From Cellulomonas triticagri (GTDB taxonomy: Bacteria > Actinomycetota > Actinomycetes > Actinomycetales > Cellulomonadaceae), in NCBI RefSeq assembly GCF_003696205.1, contig NZ_RFFI01000036.1, positions 1 to 34,518 on the forward strand: a stretch of 34,518 nt of DNA. The letters run 5' to 3'. Numbering within the stretch: the first letter of the stretch is position 1; each line of letters starts with the position of its first letter. The position numbers and the translations under genes are program-made. Positions 2,174 to 9,546 of the stretch are shown here, in pieces. The notes beneath the pieces were generated by a model. It saw only the letters and a program-made list of their open reading frames with translations. It was not told the origin of the DNA and made no database searches.

Positions 2174-3056
2174 GGCGCGGGCGCGCACCGCGTTCGAGGC
2201 GATCGGCACCCGCTGGGAGATCGACACCCCCGAGCCGCTGACGCCCGCCGTGCTCGCGGCGGTGCACGAGCGGATCGGGCGGTTCGACCAGGACTGGTCC
2301 CGGTTCCGCGCGGACTCCTGGGTGAGCGAGGTCGCGCGCTCCGGCGCGGGGACGTACGCGCTGCCCGCCGACGCGGGCCCGCTGCTCGACGTGTACGACG
2401 TGGCGGCGCGCTGCACTGACGGCGCGGTGAGCCCGCTGGTCGGGCACGCGCTGGAGGACCTCGGGTACGACGCGACGTACTCGCTGCGGCCCCGGCGGGA
2501 CGCCGCGGGTGCGCTGCTGACCCGCCCGGCCCCCGACTGGGGTTCAGTGGTGCGCGCGCCGGGGCAGGTCACGCTCGGCGGACCCGCGCTCCTCGACGTG
2601 GGAGCCGCCGGCAAGGGCTACCTCGTGGACCTGGTCGCCGAGGTGCTGACCGCGCACGGCGTGCGGGAGCACGTCGTGGACGCGGGCGGGGACCTGCGCG
2701 CGTCCGTGCCCGAGCCGCTGGTGGTCGCGCTGGAGGACCCCCGCGACACCGGGCGCGCGCTCGGGACGGTGCGGGTCGCGACGGGCGCCGTGTGCGGGTC
2801 GGCGACGAACCGGCGCGCCTGGGCGCCCGACGCGCACCACGTGGTCGACGCCCGCACCGGGCTGCCGACCAGGGACGTGCTCGCCGCCTGGGCGTTCGCA
2901 CCCACCGCGCTGGTCGCCGACATGGCCGCGACCGCGCTGTTCTTCGCCGAGCCGGACCTCGTCGCGTCCCGGTTCGGCGTCCGCTACGTGGTGCTGCGCG
3001 CGGACGGCAGCGCCCGCTGGTCGTTGGACCTGGACGGGGAGGTGCTGGCGCGATGA
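2160..3056 (+). CDS. apbE: FAD:protein FMN transferase (ApbE family)
   Basis: Transfers FMN from FAD to a Thr or Ser of exported flavoproteins. The 298-residue protein shows the family landmarks in order: GTRW (16-19), SRFRADS (47-53), GAAGKG (148-153), DAGGD (174-178), HHVVDARTG (226-234) and the metal-site segment T249-x4-D254. No signal peptide or lipobox is visible, although ApbE proteins often act outside the cytoplasm, so its location is open. The start overlaps the end of the lipoprotein gene, and its stop overlaps the ATG of the next gene (ATGA at 3053-3056), which indicates translational coupling. The obvious substrate is the lipoprotein encoded just upstream. Confidence 0.92.
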   Translation: MPPREARARTAFEAIGTRWEIDTPEPLTPAVLAAVHERIGRFDQDWSRFRADSWVSEVARSGAGTYALPADAGPLLDVYDVAARCTDGAVSPLVGHALEDLGYDATYSLRPRRDAAGALLTRPAPDWGSVVRAPGQVTLGGPALLDVGAAGKGYLVDLVAEVLTAHGVREHVVDAGGDLRASVPEPLVVALEDPRDTGRALGTVRVATGAVCGSATNRRAWAPDAHHVVDARTGLPTRDVLAAWAFAPTALVADMAATALFFAEPDLVASRFGVRYVVLRADGSARWSLDLDGEVLAR

Positions 3057-4561
3057 TCGCGTGGGTGGACGAGCGGCTGGGCCGCGTGACGATGTACCGG
3101 ATGCTGACGATCGGGCTGCTGGCACTGGCCGCCGTCGCGACGGTGCTGGCCGCGACCGGGGTGCTGTTCGTGGAGCCGCTGGCCGTGCTGGTCAGCGCGG
3201 CGGTGGCCGTGGGCGCGTCGGTCGCGGGGGCGTGGGGTGCGGCGCTGGTGTGCCGGACCCGCCCGCACACCGAGTCGGCGGTCATCACCGGGCTGATCCT
3301 GCTGTTCCTGTTCTGGCCGACGCTGGAGGCCCGGTATCTCGGGACGCTGGCGCTCGCCGCGGTGGTCGCGAACGCGTCGAAGTACCTGCTCGCGTGGCGG
3401 GGACGGCACGTGCTGAACCCGGCGGCGCTCGGGGCGTTCGTGATCGGGCTGACCGGGTGGGACGCGTCGACCTGGTGGGTCGCCGACCGCTGGCTGCTCG
3501 TCCCGGTGCTGCTGCTCGTCGTCGTGATCGTGCTGCGGACCCGCCGGTACGCGCTGGTCGGGACGTTCGTGGTCGCGGCGACGGCGTTCGTGGCGATCCG
3601 GTTGGTGACCGGCGGCGCCGACGCCCTCGACGCCGTGAGCACGGCCCTGGTGTCGTACCCGATCCTGTTCCTCGCGGGCGTCATGCTCACCGAGCCGCTG
3701 ACCCTGCCGCCGCGCCGCTGGCAGCAGCTGCTGGAGGCCGTGGTGGTCGCCGCGGTGTTCGCGGTGCCGTACCACCTCGGCCCGCTGTACAGCACGCCCG
3801 AGGCGGCGCTGCTGGTCGGCAACCTGCTGGCGTTCGGGTTCGGGCAGCGCGGGGCGGTGCGCCTCACGCTCACCCGGCAGCGGCGGCTCACGCCCCGCAC
3901 GGTCGAGCTCGCGTTCCGGGCGGACCGGCCGGTGCGGTTCCGGCCCGGGCAGTGGGTGGAGCTCACCGTCCCGCACCCGCGGCCCGACGCGCGCGGCACC
4001 CGGCGGGTGTTCTCGGTGTCGTCGGCGCCGGGCGACGGCGAGCTCACGGTCGCGCTGACCGTGCCGGAGCGGGCGTCGACGTTCAAGCGCGCGCTCGGGT
4101 CGCTGCCCGTGGGGGCGCGGGTTCGGGCGACCGGGCTCGGCGGGGACTTCCTGCTGCCCGACGACCCCGCGCGGCCCCTGCTGCTCGTGGCCGGGGGCAT
4201 CGGCGTCACACCGTTCGCGAGCCAGCTCGCCGCCCTCGTCGCGGCGGGGGAGCGGCGGGACGTCGTGCTCGTGCACGCCGTCACCGACCACGCGGACCTC
4301 GCCTACGCGGACGTGGCGGCGGCCGCCGGGGCGCGGGTGCTCGTGCTCTCGCCGACGCCGGACGCCGACGGGCTGCCCGCCGGGGCCGTGCACCTCGGGG
4401 CGCGGCGGCTCACACCGGAGCTGCTGGCCGAGGCGGTGCCGGACCTCGCGGGGCGCGACGCCTACGCGTCGGGACCGCCCGCGATGGTGGACCACACGCG
4501 GGCGCTGCTGCGCGGGGCCGGGGTGCGGCGGGTGCGGACGGACGCGTTCAGCGGGTACTGA
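3053..4561 (+). CDS. RnfD/NqrB-type membrane protein fused to a ferredoxin-NADP reductase domain
   Basis: A 502-residue two-part protein. Residues 1-265 hold about nine hydrophobic segments and the RnfD/NqrB signature RHVLNPAALG (118-127), with MLTEPLTLPP (211-220) matching the FMxTDPxTxP region. Residues 266-502 form a cytoplasmic FNR module: RVFSVSS for flavin (318-324), GGIGVTP for NAD(P)H (381-387), YASGPPAMV (471-479) and a C-terminal Tyr. It probably oxidises NAD(P)H and passes electrons across the membrane to the flavinylated lipoprotein. No SGAT flavinylation motif is visible in the membrane half. No other Rnf/Nqr subunit gene is nearby. The start overlaps the apbE stop. This architecture resembles predicted flavin-based extracytosolic electron-transfer systems; the acceptor is unknown. 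Confidence 0.88.
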   Translation: MIAWVDERLGRVTMYRMLTIGLLALAAVATVLAATGVLFVEPLAVLVSAAVAVGASVAGAWGAALVCRTRPHTESAVITGLILLFLFWPTLEARYLGTLALAAVVANASKYLLAWRGRHVLNPAALGAFVIGLTGWDASTWWVADRWLLVPVLLLVVVIVLRTRRYALVGTFVVAATAFVAIRLVTGGADALDAVSTALVSYPILFLAGVMLTEPLTLPPRRWQQLLEAVVVAAVFAVPYHLGPLYSTPEAALLVGNLLAFGFGQRGAVRLTLTRQRRLTPRTVELAFRADRPVRFRPGQWVELTVPHPRPDARGTRRVFSVSSAPGDGELTVALTVPERASTFKRALGSLPVGARVRATGLGGDFLLPDDPARPLLLVAGGIGVTPFASQLAALVAAGERRDVVLVHAVTDHADLAYADVAAAAGARVLVLSPTPDADGLPAGAVHLGARRLTPELLAEAVPDLAGRDAYASGPPAMVDHTRALLRGAGVRRVRTDAFSGY

Positions 4562-4563
4562 GC

Positions 4564-4594
4564 GGGCCCGGCGGCGGAGCCCGCCGCCGGGTCC
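4564..4594. terminator. Bidirectional terminator between convergent genes
   Basis: A 14-bp stem (4564-4577 with 4581-4594, one G-U pair) with loop AGC, starting 3 bases after the reductase stop and 37 bases before the stop of the convergent NmrA-like gene. It can serve both strands. Confidence 0.7.
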
Positions 4595-4630
4595 GCAGTG
4601 GCCCGGCGAGTCCGTCGCGCCGGGGCGGGC

Positions 4631-5374
4631 TCACCCCGCGACCGGCACCCCGGCCACCGGGTACGGCCGCGCGCCCCGGCGGTACGCACCGAGCGGGACC
4701 AGCGCGTCGCCGGACTCCGCGCCCAGCGCCGTGCCGTCGACCGTCCGCACCACGCGCGGATCACCCTGCTCGGCCAGCGTCGCGCGGAGCAGGTCGTCGA
4801 GCCGGAACCGGTCGGGCCCGGCGAGGTCGACCGTGTCGCCGAGGGCCGGCCCCTCCGCGACGTCGGCGAGCAGCGCGACGACGTCCTCGACCGCGACGGG
4901 CTGCAGCAGCGTCCCCGGCGCGTGCACCGTCCCGTCGACGGTGAGCCAGTCCGCGATCGACGGGACGAAGTGGTGGAACTGCGTGGCCCGCACGACCGTG
5001 AACGGGACGTCGCCCTCCCGCACGGCGTCCTCCTGCGCCACCTTGCCCGCGTAGTACCCGTTCGCAAGGGCGCGGTCCGCCCCGACGACGGAGAGCAGCA
5101 CGTGGTGCCGGACACCGGTGCTGAGCTCCGCGGCGAGCAGCCGCTCCGTGGTCCCGCGGAAGAACGCCGTCGCGGCCGCGGCCTCCATCTCGGGCGTGTT
5201 GAGCACGTCGACGACGACGTCCGCGCCCCGCACGGCGTCCCCGACCCCGGCGCCGGTCACGGGGTCGAACCCGTCCTCCCGCGATCCGACGACGACGTCG
5301 TGCCCCAGCTCCCGGAGCCGGGCGGTCAGCCGGCTCCCGACGTGGCCGGTGCCTCCGGCGACGAGCATCCGCAT
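4631..5374 (-). CDS. NmrA-like NAD(P)-binding protein (atypical SDR), ECF41-associated
   Basis: A 247-residue single-domain Rossmann protein. The N-terminal GGTGHVGS (7-14) is the dinucleotide loop of atypical short-chain dehydrogenases of the NmrA/epimerase type. A YYAGK segment and VRATQFHHF in the middle also fit. The substrate is not known; many of these proteins act as redox sensors or epimerases. It follows the sigma factor gene by 69 bases and has its own ECF41-like promoter (5415-5445). ECF41 sigma factors are typically encoded beside a carboxymuconolactone decarboxylase, oxidoreductase or epimerase gene, and this is the epimerase-type partner. GGGAGGG precedes ATG 5374 but may be masked by a hairpin. 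Confidence 0.85.
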   Translation of the reverse strand: MRMLVAGGTGHVGSRLTARLRELGHDVVVGSREDGFDPVTGAGVGDAVRGADVVVDVLNTPEMEAAAATAFFRGTTERLLAAELSTGVRHHVLLSVVGADRALANGYYAGKVAQEDAVREGDVPFTVVRATQFHHFVPSIADWLTVDGTVHAPGTLLQPVAVEDVVALLADVAEGPALGDTVDLAGPDRFRLDDLLRATLAEQGDPRVVRTVDGTALGAESGDALVPLGAYRRGARPYPVAGVPVAG

Positions 5375-5382
5375 GGTGATCC

Positions 5383-5415
5383 CTCCCGGCCGGCGCCCTG
5401 CCGGCCTCGGGAGGA
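5383..5415 (-). other. 5' UTR hairpin covering the Shine-Dalgarno of the NmrA-like gene
   Basis: In the minus-strand transcript CCTCCC-GA-GGCCGGC pairs with GCCGGCC-GGGAGG, interrupted by a 2-base bulge. The 3' arm contains the Shine-Dalgarno GGGAGG. If transcription starts only a few bases after the -10 motif the 5' arm would be partly lost, so real masking depends on the true start site. Confidence 0.45.
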
Positions 5416-5445
5416 TGACGACGCAGCGCCGGCGGGTGTGAGGTC
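5415..5445 (-). promoter_or_regulatory. ECF41-type promoter of the NmrA-like gene
   Basis: Read on the minus strand: -35 TCACA (5441-5437), 16 bases, -10 CGTC (5420-5417). The known ECF41 consensus is TGTCACA-N16-CGTC. Over 31 bases it is identical at 27 positions to the promoter of the NDH-2 gene (7841-7871). Its upstream edge overlaps the stop codon of the sigma factor gene. Confidence 0.8.
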
Positions 5446-6406
5446 AGGCGGACCAGGTGGTGAGCTTGCCGGGGTTGACCTGCAGCCACAGGTCGGTGAT
5501 CCGGCCGTCGCGCACCCGGGCGTTGACCAGCGCCTGGACCCGGCCCTCGTCCTCCAGGGCGAACGCCAGGCCGTCGCCCGTGCGCCGGGCGGCCAGGACC
5601 GCCGTCGGCCGCTTCTGCAGGATGCCGAGCACGAACCGGGCGACGTGGTCGACGCCCAGCACCGGCCGCCGCGCGGCGCTGACGACACCGCCGCCGTCCG
5701 CCCGCAGCGTCACCGACGGGTCGAGCAGCCCGGTGAGGGCGGCGAGGTCCCCGCCCGTGGCCGCGGCCACGAACGCCGCCAGCACGTCGTCGTGCTCGCG
5801 GGTGCCGCGCCCGGGGGCGTCGTGTGCCCGGACCCGCCGCCGGGCGGAGGTCGCGAGCTGACGGACGGCCGCCGGGCTGCGGCCCACGGCCTCGGCGATC
5901 TCGTCGAACGGCAGGGCGAACACGTCGTGCAGCACGAACGCCACGCGCTCCGCCGGCGTCATGGCCTCCATCACGACCAGGAGGGCGGTGCTGACCTCCT
6001 CGTCGAGGGAGACCCGGTCGAACGGGTCCCCGTCGTCCGGTGCCGGAGCGCGGCCGGCCGCACCGGAGAACAGGTCGGCGGGGACGGGCTCGGGGAGCCA
6101 CTCGCCGACGTACCGCTCCCGGCGGGCCCGCGCGGAGCCCAGCACGTCGAGGCACACCCGGCTCATGACCCGGGTGAGCCAGCCCTGCGGGTTGCGGACG
6201 GCGGCACGCTCCGCGTCCGTCATGCGGTACCAGCGGACGTAGGTCTCCTGGACGGCGTCCTCCGCCTCGGCGAGCGTGCCGAGCATCCGGTAGCCGATGG
6301 CGAGCAGCCGGCGGCGCTCGGCGAGCACAGCGTCCCCGACCCCGACGGGTCCGTCGGCGGGGTCGAGGTCGCTCACGGTCCGTGTGTCCTCTCCGTCGCC
6401 CGTCAT
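5444..6406 (-). CDS. ECF41-family RNA polymerase sigma factor with SnoaL-like C-terminal domain
   Basis: A 320-residue sigma factor (SigJ-like). Sigma-2 spans about residues 27-95 and sigma-4 about 138-190; they are joined by a linker carrying WLPEP (103-107), a hallmark of ECF41. A SnoaL-like extension (about 203-317) holds DGGG (237-240) and NPGKL (311-315), the positions of the other ECF41 signatures. In this group the C-terminal domain regulates the sigma factor in cis and replaces an anti-sigma factor; none is encoded nearby. ATG 6406 overlaps the stop of the upstream NDH-2-like gene (ATGA), so the two are coupled. An in-frame extension to 6661 is not used because it lies inside that gene. 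Confidence 0.93.
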   Translation of the reverse strand: MTGDGEDTRTVSDLDPADGPVGVGDAVLAERRRLLAIGYRMLGTLAEAEDAVQETYVRWYRMTDAERAAVRNPQGWLTRVMSRVCLDVLGSARARRERYVGEWLPEPVPADLFSGAAGRAPAPDDGDPFDRVSLDEEVSTALLVVMEAMTPAERVAFVLHDVFALPFDEIAEAVGRSPAAVRQLATSARRRVRAHDAPGRGTREHDDVLAAFVAAATGGDLAALTGLLDPSVTLRADGGGVVSAARRPVLGVDHVARFVLGILQKRPTAVLAARRTGDGLAFALEDEGRVQALVNARVRDGRITDLWLQVNPGKLTTWSA

Positions 6407-7809
6407 GCTGCGGCGATCGTGGCACGGTCCGCCGGGGTCGTCGACGCGTCGACGGGCCGGTCCGCGTCCGCGGCGTCGTCCCGGGTCAGCGCGAGCTCCG
6501 GGGCGCCGCCGGTGACGAACGCGCGCCGCGGGTCGACGACGGCGCCCAGCGAGGCGATGTCCCGGCCGCCGAGCGCGGCGCCGAGCCAGACCAGCAGGAC
6601 GCGGAGCTTGCGCTCCCAGGTCGGCACGGCCAGGACGTGGTAACCGCGGTGGGCGAGCCACGCCGGCAGTCCGGTGAGCACGAGCCGCCGGTACTGGAAC
6701 ACGCCCTGGTGCCGGCCCAGCGTCGCGACGACGCCGAGGCTGTGGTGCACGTAGTCCCGGGGACGGCGGCCCCGCAGCGTCGCCACGAGGTTCGCGGCGA
6801 GCAGCCGGCCCTGCCGAACGGCCTGCTGCGCGTTCGGGACGGTCAGCGCCCCGGGTGCGCCGGTGAGGTCCGGGACCGCCGCGTCGTCACCCGCGGCCCA
6901 CGCGTCCGGCACCACGGCGCCGTCCGCGTCCTCGACGCGCAGGTCGGCGCGTACCCGCACCAGGCCCCGGTCCGTGACGGGCAGGTCGGTGTGCCGGCTC
7001 ACGACCGGGTTCGCGGCGTTCCCGGCGGTCCAGACCACGAGGCCGCTGTCGAACTCTTCGCCGGTGGAGAGCACGACGTGGCCGCCCACGGCGGACCGCA
7101 GCTGCGCCCCGAGGTGCACGCGGGCGCCACGCCCGCGCAGGTGCCGCACCACCCAGGCCCCGGGCCCGTCGGTGACCTCCGGCAGGATCCGGTCGCGGGC
7201 CTCGACGAGGTGGAACGCCAGGTCGTCCGGCCCGAGCTCCGGGTACGACCCGAGGAGCGAGGTCGCCAGCGACAGGGTCTCGCCGAACGCCTCGACGCCG
7301 GAGAACCCGCCGCCGACGAACGTGAAGGTCAGCAACCTCCGCCGCTCCGGCCCCGGGGGCAGGACCGCCGCCCGGTCGAACGCGGTCAGGACGTGGTCGC
7401 GGACGGCCACGGCCTCCTCGACCTGCTTCAGCCCGATGGCCTCCTCGACCAGCCCGGGGATCGGCAGCGTGCGGGTGACGGCGCCCGCGGTCACGACGAC
7501 CACGTCGTAGGCGAGGTCGAACGGGCGGCCGTCCCGGGGCGCCACCGTGACCGTCCGGGCTGCGTGGTCGATCCGGGTCACGGCACCGGCCAGCACGCGC
7601 GTGCGGCGCAGGTGGCGGCGCAGGGGCACGGTGGCGTGCCGGGCCTCCACCGACCCCGAGGCCACCTCGGGGAGGAACGGCTGGTACGTCATGTACGGGC
7701 GCGGGTCGATGACGGTGACCCGCGCCTCGCCACGACGGAGCCTCTTCTCGAGCCCCCACGCGGCGTAGAACCCGGCGTACCCACCACCGACGACGACGAT
7801 GTGCTTCAC
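6403..7809 (-). CDS. NDH-2-like FAD-dependent NAD(P)H oxidoreductase, ECF41-associated
   Basis: A 468-residue pyridine nucleotide-disulfide oxidoreductase of the type II NADH dehydrogenase kind. GGGYAG (8-13) binds FAD, a second Rossmann loop VGGGFSG binds NAD(P)H, and WAAGD closes the FAD site. Type II enzymes pass electrons from NADH to quinone at the inner membrane surface without pumping protons. The Leu/Trp-rich C-terminal part (TWERKLRVLLVWLGAALGG) could be the membrane-attachment helix. GTG 7809 follows AGGAAGGGG. It is first in an operon with the ECF41 sigma factor and has an ECF41-type promoter 34 bases upstream. The electron acceptor is not shown by the sequence. Confidence 0.88.
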   Translation of the reverse strand: MKHIVVVGGGYAGFYAAWGLEKRLRRGEARVTVIDPRPYMTYQPFLPEVASGSVEARHATVPLRRHLRRTRVLAGAVTRIDHAARTVTVAPRDGRPFDLAYDVVVVTAGAVTRTLPIPGLVEEAIGLKQVEEAVAVRDHVLTAFDRAAVLPPGPERRRLLTFTFVGGGFSGVEAFGETLSLATSLLGSYPELGPDDLAFHLVEARDRILPEVTDGPGAWVVRHLRGRGARVHLGAQLRSAVGGHVVLSTGEEFDSGLVVWTAGNAANPVVSRHTDLPVTDRGLVRVRADLRVEDADGAVVPDAWAAGDDAAVPDLTGAPGALTVPNAQQAVRQGRLLAANLVATLRGRRPRDYVHHSLGVVATLGRHQGVFQYRRLVLTGLPAWLAHRGYHVLAVPTWERKLRVLLVWLGAALGGRDIASLGAVVDPRRAFVTGGAPELALTRDDAADADRPVDASTTPADRATIAAA

Positions 7810-7840
7810 GGCTGCGACCCCTTCCTGTCCGGTCGCAGGA

Positions 7841-7871
7841 ATGACGACGCAGCGGCCCCGGATGTGAGGTC
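7841..7871 (-). promoter_or_regulatory. ECF41-type promoter of the NDH-2/sigma operon
   Basis: Read on the minus strand: -35 TCACA (7867-7863), 16 bases, -10 CGTC (7846-7843), then about 33 bases to the GTG start. 27 of 31 bases match the promoter at 5415-5445, including GACCTCACA and GCTGCGTCGTCAT. It implies that the sigma factor drives its own operon. Confidence 0.8.
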
Positions 7872-7880
7872 GCGCCCGGG

Positions 7881-9119
7881 TCAGGCGTTCGTGACCACCA
7901 GGGCCACGTTGTGCCCGCCGAAGCCGAACGAGTTGTTGATGACCGCCACGTCGCCGTCGGGCAGCGCGCGCGGGGTGTCCCGGACCAGGTCGAGGACCAT
8001 CTCCGGGTCGGGGTTCTCGACGTTGATCGTCGGGGGCGCCTGCCGGTCGCGGACCGCGAGGACGGAGAACACCGTCTCCAGCGCCCCGGCGCCGCCGAGC
8101 AGGTGCCCGGTCATCGACTTGGTCGCCGAGAGCACGACGCCGTCGGCGGCGTCGCCCAGGACCTCGCGGACGCCGCGCGCCTCGATGAGGTCGCCGACCA
8201 CGGTGGACGTGGCGTGCGCGTTGACGTGCTTCACGTCGGCCGCGGCGATACCCGCCTCCTTCAGCGCCATCCGCATCGCGGCGATCTGGCCGCGACCCGT
8301 GGGCTCGGGGGAGGTGATGTGGTAGCCGTCGGACGACAGGCCGACGCCGGAGATCTCCGCGTACACGCGGGCGCCGCGGGCGGCGGCGTGCGCCTCGGAC
8401 TCCAGGACGACGATGCCGGAGCCCTCGCCGATCACGAAGCCGTCGCGGTCCACGTCGTACGGACGCGACGCGCGCGCCGGGTCGTCGGTGCGGGTCGACA
8501 GGGTGCGGGACGCGGCGAACGCGGCCATCGGCATCGGGTGGATGGTGGCCTCGGTGCCACCGGCGATGACGATGTCGGCGCGGCCGCTGCGGATCATGTC
8601 CACGGCGTAGCCGATCGCCTCGGCGCCGGACGCGCAGGCCGACACCAGGGCGTGCGCCCCGGCGCGGGCGCCGAACTCCAGCTCGACGTACGCGGACGGC
8701 GAGTTCGGCATGAGCATGGGGACGGTCATCGGCAGGACGCGGCGGGCGCCCTTCTCGCGCAGCGTGTCCCACGCGTCCAGCGTGGTCCAGATGCCGCCGA
8801 TGCCGGAGGACACCACGACGCCGAGGCGGTCCTTGTCGACCTCCGGCGCACCGGCGTCGGCCCAGGCCTCGCGGGACGCGATCATCGCGTACTGCGCCGA
8901 GGGGTCCATCTTCTTCATCTCGGGCCGGGGGAGGACCTCCTCCGGGGCGACCGCGAGGGTGGCGGCGAAGTCGACCGGCAGGCCGTACTTCTCGCTCCAG
9001 TCGTTGTCGAGCTTCCGTGCGCCCGAGGTGCCGGCCAGGGCGGCCTGCCAGGTGGTGGGCACGTCCCCGCCGAGGGGGGTCGTGGCGCCGAGTCCGGTGA
9101 CGACGACTCGCGTGCTCAT
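7881..9119 (-). CDS. fabF: Beta-ketoacyl-ACP synthase II
   Basis: A 412-residue condensing enzyme for elongation of acyl-ACP in type II fatty acid synthesis. The thiolase-fold active site is complete: Cys162 in SACASG, His302 in NAHATS, Lys334 and His339 in the TKSMTGH loop, and the glycine-rich NNSFGFGGHN near the C-terminus. It is last in the minus-strand cluster fabD-fabH-acpP-fabF, 178 bases after acpP. That gap holds a strong branched hairpin, so fabF may be transcribed at a lower level than acpP. Its stop lies only about 10 bases from the ECF41-type promoter of the next operon. Confidence 0.96.
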   Translation of the reverse strand: MSTRVVVTGLGATTPLGGDVPTTWQAALAGTSGARKLDNDWSEKYGLPVDFAATLAVAPEEVLPRPEMKKMDPSAQYAMIASREAWADAGAPEVDKDRLGVVVSSGIGGIWTTLDAWDTLREKGARRVLPMTVPMLMPNSPSAYVELEFGARAGAHALVSACASGAEAIGYAVDMIRSGRADIVIAGGTEATIHPMPMAAFAASRTLSTRTDDPARASRPYDVDRDGFVIGEGSGIVVLESEAHAAARGARVYAEISGVGLSSDGYHITSPEPTGRGQIAAMRMALKEAGIAAADVKHVNAHATSTVVGDLIEARGVREVLGDAADGVVLSATKSMTGHLLGGAGALETVFSVLAVRDRQAPPTINVENPDPEMVLDLVRDTPRALPDGDVAVINNSFGFGGHNVALVVTNA

Positions 9120-9216
9120 CGCTGCTCCTGAGGGTGTGTCGGGCGGTACGGGTACGGCTGGTGCGACGGGGGCGAGCCCGCGCGGGGTGCGTCCGGGACG
9201 GGTCCGGGCGCGACCA

Positions 9217-9284
9217 GGGGTCCGCGCCGCGGGAAGCGCTGGGCTCCCACGACGCCGGCTGGGCCGGCGTGCGGCGCGGACCCC
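9217..9284 (-). other. Branched hairpin between acpP and fabF
   Basis: A perfect 13-bp stem (9217-9229 with 9272-9284) encloses a second perfect 7-bp hairpin (9252-9258 with 9264-9270). It starts 14 bases after the acpP stop on the minus strand. It may act as a partial terminator or protect the 3' end of an acpP message, which would help make ACP more abundant than the condensing enzyme. Confidence 0.6.
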
Positions 9285-9297
9285 CGGTCGGTGCGGA

Positions 9298-9546
9298 TCA
9301 GGCCTGGGCGTTGTTGATGAACGACACCGCGTCGCCGACGGTCGCGAGGTTCTTGACCTCGTCGTCCGGGATGCGGACCTCGAACTTCTCCTCCGCCAGC
9401 GTGACGATCGTCATCATCGACAGGGAGTCGATGTCGAGGTCGTCCGTGAACGACTTCTCGGGCAGGACGGAGTCGGTCGGCAGGCCGGTCTCCTCGCTGA
9501 CGATCTCGGCCAGACCGGCCAGGATCTCCTGCTCGCTGTGCGCCAT
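9298..9546 (-). CDS. acpP: Acyl carrier protein
   Basis: An 82-residue acidic carrier that holds growing acyl chains on a phosphopantetheine arm. The attachment serine is Ser41 in the canonical DSLSM context, between the predicted first and second helices. The ATG at 9546 is preceded by AAGGAG. The gene lies third in the fatty acid synthase cluster, 89 bases after fabH and 178 bases before fabF. Its length and motif are typical, and the cluster order is that of other actinobacteria, so the assignment to fatty acid synthesis rather than a polyketide pathway is secure. Confidence 0.96.
   Translation of the reverse strand: MAHSEQEILAGLAEIVSEETGLPTDSVLPEKSFTDDLDIDSLSMMTIVTLAEEKFEVRIPDDEVKNLATVGDAVSFINNAQA

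Follow-up and report, generated by a model that had tools for sequence, protein, structure and literature searches.

A variant ECF41-type sigma factor and its putative CCTCACA promoters point to a small redox regulon in Cellulomonas triticagri and its relatives

Introduction

The ECF41 sigma factors, which regulate themselves, form a large family that is still poorly understood. In the window analysed here, a stretch of 34,518 nucleotides from Cellulomonas triticagri (NCBI RefSeq assembly GCF_003696205.1, contig NZ_RFFI01000036.1, positions 1 to 34,518), a sigma gene of this kind lies between a gene for an oxidoreductase resembling type II NADH dehydrogenases (NDH-2) and a gene for an NAD(P)-binding Rossmann protein, and two near-identical sites, P1 and P2, precede the two partner units. 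The locus raises the question of whether these sites are promoters read by the sigma factor and, if so, how far its regulon extends. We consider it quite likely that a small redox regulon is under the control of a SigJ/ECF41-type sigma factor carrying a fused SnoaL-like domain, and that this factor reads a promoter form specific to its branch, CCTCACA-N16-CGTC(GTCAT). Below, L-numbers denote loci and G-numbers genomes, G000 being the window's own genome (a 4.39-Mb draft); "NmrA-like" is only a label for the Rossmann protein, which gave no match to the NmrA profile PF05368 at 1e-3.

Results

Two matching sites at the sigma locus

On the minus strand the order is fabF, P1, the NDH-2-like gene, the ECF sigma gene, P2 and the Rossmann protein gene, with the following features:

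7881-9119, minus strand: fabF, a fatty-acid synthesis gene, upstream of P1.
7841-7871, minus strand: P1, putative promoter; -35 CCTCACA at 7863-7869, -10 CGTC at 7843-7846; 27 of 31 positions match P2.
6403-7809, minus strand: NDH-2-like pyridine nucleotide-disulphide oxidoreductase, 468 amino acids, GTG start at 7809; PF07992, 121.5 bits.
5444-6406, minus strand: SigJ/ECF41-type sigma factor, 320 amino acids; NF007214 (SigJ), 285.5 bits, cut-off 271.
5846-5863, minus strand: codons of R182-S187 (RQLATS) in the recognition helix of sigma4, where S187 is aligned to R176 of Escherichia coli sigmaE.
5459-5794, minus strand: C-terminal SnoaL/NTF2-like extension (about residues 205-316, about 110 residues), from the SigJ structure alignment.
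5415-5445, minus strand: P2, putative promoter; -35 CCTCACA at 5437-5443, -10 CGTC at 5417-5420; 27 of 31 positions match P1.
4631-5374, minus strand: NAD(P)-binding Rossmann ("NmrA-like") protein, 247 amino acids, ATG at 5374, behind P2; PF13460 (NAD_binding_10), 33.4 bits, cut-off 27.2.

P1 is located between the end of fabF (7881) and the GTG of the NDH-2-like gene (7809), its CGTC standing 33 nt from that codon. The NDH-2-like stop and the sigma start overlap as ATGA (6403-6406). P2 is located between the sigma stop and the NmrA-like ATG (5374), with 42 nt from CGTC to the start codon, and the sigma stop codon TGA (5446-5444) directly abuts its CCTCACA. The original prediction of two minus-strand sites at 5415-5445 and 7841-7871, alike at 27 of 31 bases, was confirmed: the most similar 31-base stretches of the two 150-bp upstream regions shared 27 bases, against a maximum of 22 in 500 dinucleotide shuffles and of 26 in 1,977 random pairs of 150-bp stretches taken from the window. 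The extended pattern CCTCACAY-N14-TCGTC occurred twice in the window and never in 100 shuffles, and P1 and P2 were its only exact matches in the whole draft genome; a close variant of it likewise gave two exact matches there. When up to two mismatches were allowed, this variant gave 70 matches against 61 for the control; because this is near the control level, no third target is claimed in that genome. The canonical pattern TGTCACA-N15..17-SGTS gave five matches in the same genome and two in the controls. A stem-loop over P2 was no better than in shuffles (z 0.06).

By itself the short pattern TCACA-N15..17-CGTC is not significant, and it was not counted as evidence. It was found twice in the window, the shuffle mean was 1.35, and at least two occurrences were seen in 40 of 100 window shuffles; the whole genome holds it at 33 places.

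Identity of the sigma factor and its partners

The sigma protein carries ECF-type sigma2 and sigma4 domains (PF04542, 44.9 bits; PF08281, 40.6 bits), and the structure of Mycobacterium tuberculosis SigJ (5xe7) aligns with it from residue 29 to residue 316, a span that takes in the SnoaL-like end (E 2.6e-50). Its sigma2-sigma4 linker reads YVGEWLPEP, containing the WLPEP motif described for ECF41 linkers (PMC3426412), and its C-terminus ends in NPGKL; these are near the signatures YVGPWLPEP and NPDKL of PMC7730460. No second ECF41-type factor was seen in the window's own genome, where the next sigma match scored 37 bits.

The neighbours are also of the kind expected of ECF41, namely a carboxymuconolactone decarboxylase, oxidoreductase or epimerase (COE), with a Pyr_redox_2 oxidoreductase upstream of the sigma gene and an NAD_binding_10/Epimerase protein downstream. 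The former has the FAD/NAD(P) pyridine nucleotide-disulphide fold, and among solved structures its nearest relatives belong to the type II NADH dehydrogenases (9mqy, E 1e-33; 4nwz, 5e-33). The latter scored 21.6 bits with the Epimerase profile (cut-off 20.9).

Assignment of the factor to ECF41 in the original prediction was thus upheld by NF007214 and 5xe7, and its statement that such loci normally have one partner gene fits the categories in Table 4 of Wecke 2012; a two-partner layout may already be drawn in Figure 2 of that paper. The claim that the sites follow the published pattern held for TCACA-N16-CGTC only. The ECF41 consensus, a descriptive one from 285 promoters, is TGTCACA-N16(+/-1)-CGTC (PMC3426412), whereas in the window the two bases before TCACA are CC instead of TG. 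By its domains, linker and neighbours, the window's protein is an ECF41-type factor with a variant putative promoter, not a canonical ECF41 system.

Co-occurrence of the sites with the sigma gene

Sites and sigma genes were compared in 81 genomes of the genus and 396 genomes of the order. In the genus scan, sigma orthologues (above 350 bits) were present in eight genomes (G000, G005, G013, G030, G050, G056, G057 and G058). All eight held sites (2-3 each, 19 in total), compared with 8 of the 73 others (1-2 each, 11 in total; Fisher 4e-7), among which is counted G071, a 78% complete genome without a site whose sigma gene is partial (67%) at a contig end. The motif thus proved usable as a genus-wide search key, as had been proposed. 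The reversed control pattern gave three matches in the 81 genomes. Eighteen of the 19 sites lie within about 55 nt of the start of an NDH-2-like, NmrA-like or second NmrA-like (NmrA-like-2) gene; the nineteenth, which is the second of the G013 sites, stands about 450 nt ahead of the homologous NmrA-like-2 start and 131 nt ahead of the longest frame.

In the order scan, factors with Ser at the position of S187 (Ser type) were called at E below 1e-45 with five candidates scored per genome, so that some may be missed; G234 was classed by a score nearly equal to that of G261, its helix being unread. Sites were found in 17 of the 32 genomes with a Ser-type sigma (29 sites) and in 39 of the 364 others (Fisher 4e-8). 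In 13 of these 17 genomes the sigma gene had a site no more than 5 kb away.

Such sites might instead be promoters or operators of another regulator, either a sigma factor or a DNA-binding protein, the sigma gene being merely one of its targets. The eight genus genomes that hold a match and no close orthologue fit this explanation, and the link between sigma factor and site comes from sequence comparison. Against it stand the co-occurrence in both scans and an architecture equal to that of the mapped ECF41 promoter of Sinorhizobium meliloti, TGTCACA-N16-CGTCAT. In addition, 10 of the 11 stray genus sites were read (all but L082), and none stood before a recognisable partner-type gene, as judged by eye. 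Together with the correlation with a recognition-helix residue described below, these points make control by another regulator very improbable. From conservation and co-occurrence, P1 and P2 are probably promoters read by this sigma factor.

Conservation of the sites before partner genes

For wider comparison, 60 stretches were fetched, chosen mostly from the top of the order-scan list and not from all its rows. A strict site was defined as [CG]CTCACA-N15..17-CGTC about 250 bp or less upstream of the estimated gene start. Among Ser-type loci it preceded 11 of 15 NDH-2 orthologues, 17 of 33 NmrA-like-2 genes (37-100% identity) and 6 of 11 NmrA-like genes, the last including loci of Cellulomonas, Cellulosimicrobium and Curtobacterium. 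Before sigma itself it was present in 11 of 48 rows, and it preceded fabF in none of the four rows with full upstream DNA. Two pairs of rows in these counts, L003/L063 and L010/L067, are identical sequences from two collections. The reverse-strand control (20/111) was not clean, because many loci hold divergent sites in the same gap. The counts for NDH-2, NmrA-like and NmrA-like-2, against those for fabF, support conservation of the motif before orthologous partner genes. The promoter before the NmrA-like gene is not universal; two loci of Amnibacterium and one each of Blastococcus and Cellulosimicrobium lack it, as does G253.

These counts bear on the simplest reading of the locus, an ordinary ECF41 arrangement in which the NDH-2-like, sigma and NmrA-like genes form a single operon transcribed from P1, with P2 an unused remnant or duplicate. 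The three genes are co-oriented, a simple scan detected no terminator-like site between sigma and NmrA-like, nearly half of the NmrA-like rows (5/11) are without a strict site, and the ECF41 factors studied in the available parts of PMC3426412 and PMC6180224 had a single target transcript. On the other hand, P2 retains 27 of the 31 bases of P1, a strict site precedes the NmrA-like gene in three genera, and in three congeners the motif precedes a distant NmrA-like gene out of the reach of P1. We regard a single operon as unlikely.

Expression of the NDH-2-like and sigma genes mainly by read-through from fabH, acpP and fabF was also considered. These genes lie upstream, fabF on the same strand across a gap of 71 bp, and fabF is also just upstream in the nearest named relatives, Cellulomonas sp. 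IC4_254 (L001; sigma 90% identical) and C. pakistanensis (L010; 83%). However, the promoter stays in place where fabF ends about 1.5 kb away (L003) and where the flank contains no fabF match (L005, L006 and L018). Read-through as the main source of expression is decidedly unlikely, and it does not exclude an added sigma-dependent start.

Two loci of Microbacterium each have a pair of CC/GC-type sites, arranged back to back between the sigma gene and a divergent gene (L009:1716-1769 and L012:4936-4988), with -35 boxes that touch or sit a few bases apart.

Distant sites and extent of the putative regulon

Three congeners have a third site, 49-55 nt ahead of a second NmrA-like gene. In G030 it shares the contig at a distance of about 73 kb, in G050 the distance is about 88 kb, and in G056 it is on another contig. 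In G005, G013, G057 and G058 the NmrA-like-2 gene adjoins either the sigma gene or the gene beside sigma. It was not found in the window's genome, where the best match was the window's own NmrA-like gene (48%). The NmrA-like-2 protein of G056 scored 23.6 bits with PF05368, below the cut-off of 27.

Non-adjacent candidates were also detected in other genera. In G234, G261, G347 and G412, which belong to two other genera, a gene whose 99-residue product is, by eye, much like the ABM protein of L169 has a CC-type site 87 nt ahead of it. The nearest listed sigma gene is about 10-23 kb away from these sites or, in G261, on another contig. An ABM gene with a CC-type site stands beside the sigma gene in G184, and G253 has an NmrA-like gene with a CC-type site on another contig. 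At the 49 Ser-type and three third-site loci, 58 sites were assigned: 19 to NmrA-like-2 or similar genes, 15 to sigma, 8 to NDH-2, 7 to NmrA-like and 9 to other genes. Eight of these nine encode carboxymuconolactone decarboxylase (two), a DUF4345-like membrane protein (two, one below the Pfam cut-off and one without a match), cytochrome b (two), an SDR and an ABM protein; the ninth frame looks spurious. The cytochrome b-like genes are preceded by a CC-type site at 32-47 nt (L167:1099 and L172:222), and the product of L172, the only one of the two scanned, matched PF13631 with 134.8 bits.

The founding study of the family, Wecke 2012 (PMC3426412), concluded that an ECF41 factor generally has one gene or operon under its control. 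The window's genome has two sites and three congeners have a distant third, as far as sequence alone can tell. The local sigma regulon of the original prediction held in that sites precede both partner units; these data suggest that the regulon is not only local and has distant candidate targets in relatives.

A recognition-helix residue and the base before TCACA

To place S187 on sigmaE, match coordinates of equal length to 2h27, 1or7 and 6jbq were used, extra residues being taken as N-terminal and the length of sigmaE as 191; S187 then falls on R176. The 127 sigma genes collected reduced to 116 distinct ones, one of them without the residue, leaving 115 for comparison. Twenty-eight were uncallable (no site, another base or a tie). 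Among the 87 callable factors, 84 agreed with a simple rule: Arg goes with G before TCACA (51 factors), and Ser, Gln or Ala with C (33). In a plasmid set of 14 loci, picked for variety from 60 listed rows (374 records matched), 12 had a site and all 12 agreed, S. meliloti pSymB among them. In a phylum-scan set of 16 loci (all rows except the window and G162), nine had a site and six agreed. L260 and L262 carry TGCGTCGTC identical to the window's, yet have Arg and TG or GG. The -35 type therefore tracks the sigma4 helix residue even with the same -10 as the window, which also speaks against a different regulator.

In crystals of SigW and sigmaE with DNA, R175/R176 forms a bond to O6 of G-35 and also touches base -36 (PMC6713349). 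These are the two bases that differ here, so that the link between residue and base is structurally sensible. Ser187, Arg in the canonical type, is the likely cause of CC in place of TG.

Several observations weigh against this rule. L175, L176 and L189 disagree with it, as do L248, L254 and L259 of the phylum scan. A quick tree that leaves out the helix columns shows a single change of the Arg/Ser trait and one independent pair, and the association therefore counts statistically as about one event.

L175 and L176, both Ser-type factors, have the helix CRRLASSAR, in which Arg replaces Gln where the window's factor has residue 183. Their sites read cgTCACA, and they may represent a second specificity change.

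Discussion

We propose the following model for the locus. P1 would transcribe the NDH-2-like gene and the translationally coupled sigma gene, providing positive feedback, and P2, right behind the sigma stop codon, would add transcription of the NmrA-like gene. A signal, probably sensed by the SnoaL-like domain as assumed from published ECF41 work (PMC8999054), would release the sigma factor. Both operons would then rise together as a self-amplifying switch, and in related genomes the same sigma type would read further promoter copies elsewhere. The families of the products suggest control of the NAD(P)H/quinone redox state.

The following points count against a sigma regulon of this form. Exact sites were missing in 15 of the 32 Ser-type genomes of the order scan, 45 order-scan sites belonged to genomes in which no Ser-type sigma was detected, and about 24 matches (counted by eye) came from the control pattern of that scan. 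Strict sites were missing before NDH-2 in 4 of 15 rows (a one-base variant in L004, none in L007, L008 and L162) and before NmrA-like in L002, L005, L006, L007 and L152. Neither a C- nor a G-type site was present in flanks of 1.5-5 kb of 15 of 50 Ser-type factors, nor, for two of these 15 (L041 and L042), in wider stretches. The Pfam SnoaL_2 profile scored 14.2 bits on the sigma extension, below its cut-off of 27. With fabF so close and no terminator-like site found, read-through could also express the operon; a simple scan of 4400-9300 detected neither a terminator-like site nor a sigma70-like promoter. Weighing these points together with the co-occurrence and conservation above, we conclude that the locus and its relatives are probably a real small sigma regulon.

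CC-type and canonical systems coexist in the same genomes (G231, G299 and G412). It is quite possible, and proposed here tentatively, that one Arg to Ser exchange in the helix re-keyed an actinobacterial ECF41-type branch from TG-TCACA to CC-TCACA, giving an insulated second system that grew from a single-operon switch to a small dispersed redox regulon. We recognised no description of a CC-type ECF41 branch in the literature covered; the 2021 ECF re-classification lies outside that coverage, so that novelty is not established. The CC-type promoter word finds candidate targets genome-wide, and far-off genes keep the promoter. One residue may set promoter choice, which bears on how new sigma specificities arise, and the CC-type system could be useful for building insulated genetic switches.

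Further observations

The NmrA-like protein (4631-5374, minus strand) weakly matches solved chains of complex I, including an NDUFA9-type subunit (9g83_P, 4.7e-8; 7ar7_P, 7e-4), a resemblance of interest next to an NDH-2-like gene. A convergent frame at 2792-4561 (plus strand), whose end faces the NmrA-like gene, carries an oxidoreductase NAD-binding domain (PF00175, 32.5 bits), and its N-terminal half resembles, by eye, an NqrB/RnfD-type membrane protein. A near-perfect palindrome, CGTCACATC(C/G)GATGTGACG, occurs on two other contigs of the window's genome (G000:C215:61055-61089 and G000:C12:4780-4806) and resembles an operator bound by some unrelated dimeric regulator.

Comparison with known ECF41 systems

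The window's system shares with the ECF41 factors Ecf41Bli and Ecf41Rsp (Wecke 2012, PMC3426412) the sigma2/sigma4 domains with a C-terminal extension, the WLPEP linker, partners of the COE type (here an oxidoreductase and an epimerase), and a promoter before the partner gene with a 16-bp spacer and a CGTC -10. It differs from them, as they are described there, in its -35 CCTCACA instead of TGTCACA, in two partner transcription units and in distant candidate targets in relatives. Control of activity by the C-terminal extension is a described trait of ECF41, and Ecf41Bli, for which Bacillus subtilis W168 was used as a host that lacks ECF41, was highly active in a truncated form.

Within the genus, ECF41-like paralogues of the TGTCACA type (L050-L061 except L054) were found with the window's sigma factor as query. 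The 16-bp spacer is common to both; the paralogues have a TGTCACA -35, a CGGTGTC -10, the helix VRQ(I/V/L)AHR and about 40% identity. Their site lies about 640-740 bp upstream of the sigma gene (1,331 bp in L056). M. tuberculosis SigJ (5xe7) is related over residues 29-316 of the window's factor and has a SnoaL_2-type end; its helix, RQLASRAR, is of the Arg type.

The nearest experimentally mapped relative of P1 and P2 that we saw is the promoter of the ECF41 factor RpoE9 of S. meliloti, whose single target found, in the available portion of that study, encodes a carboxymuconolactone decarboxylase (PMC6180224). RpoE9 uses TG where the window has CC and, on pSymB of strain RMO17, has Arg instead of Ser at the position of sigmaE R176.

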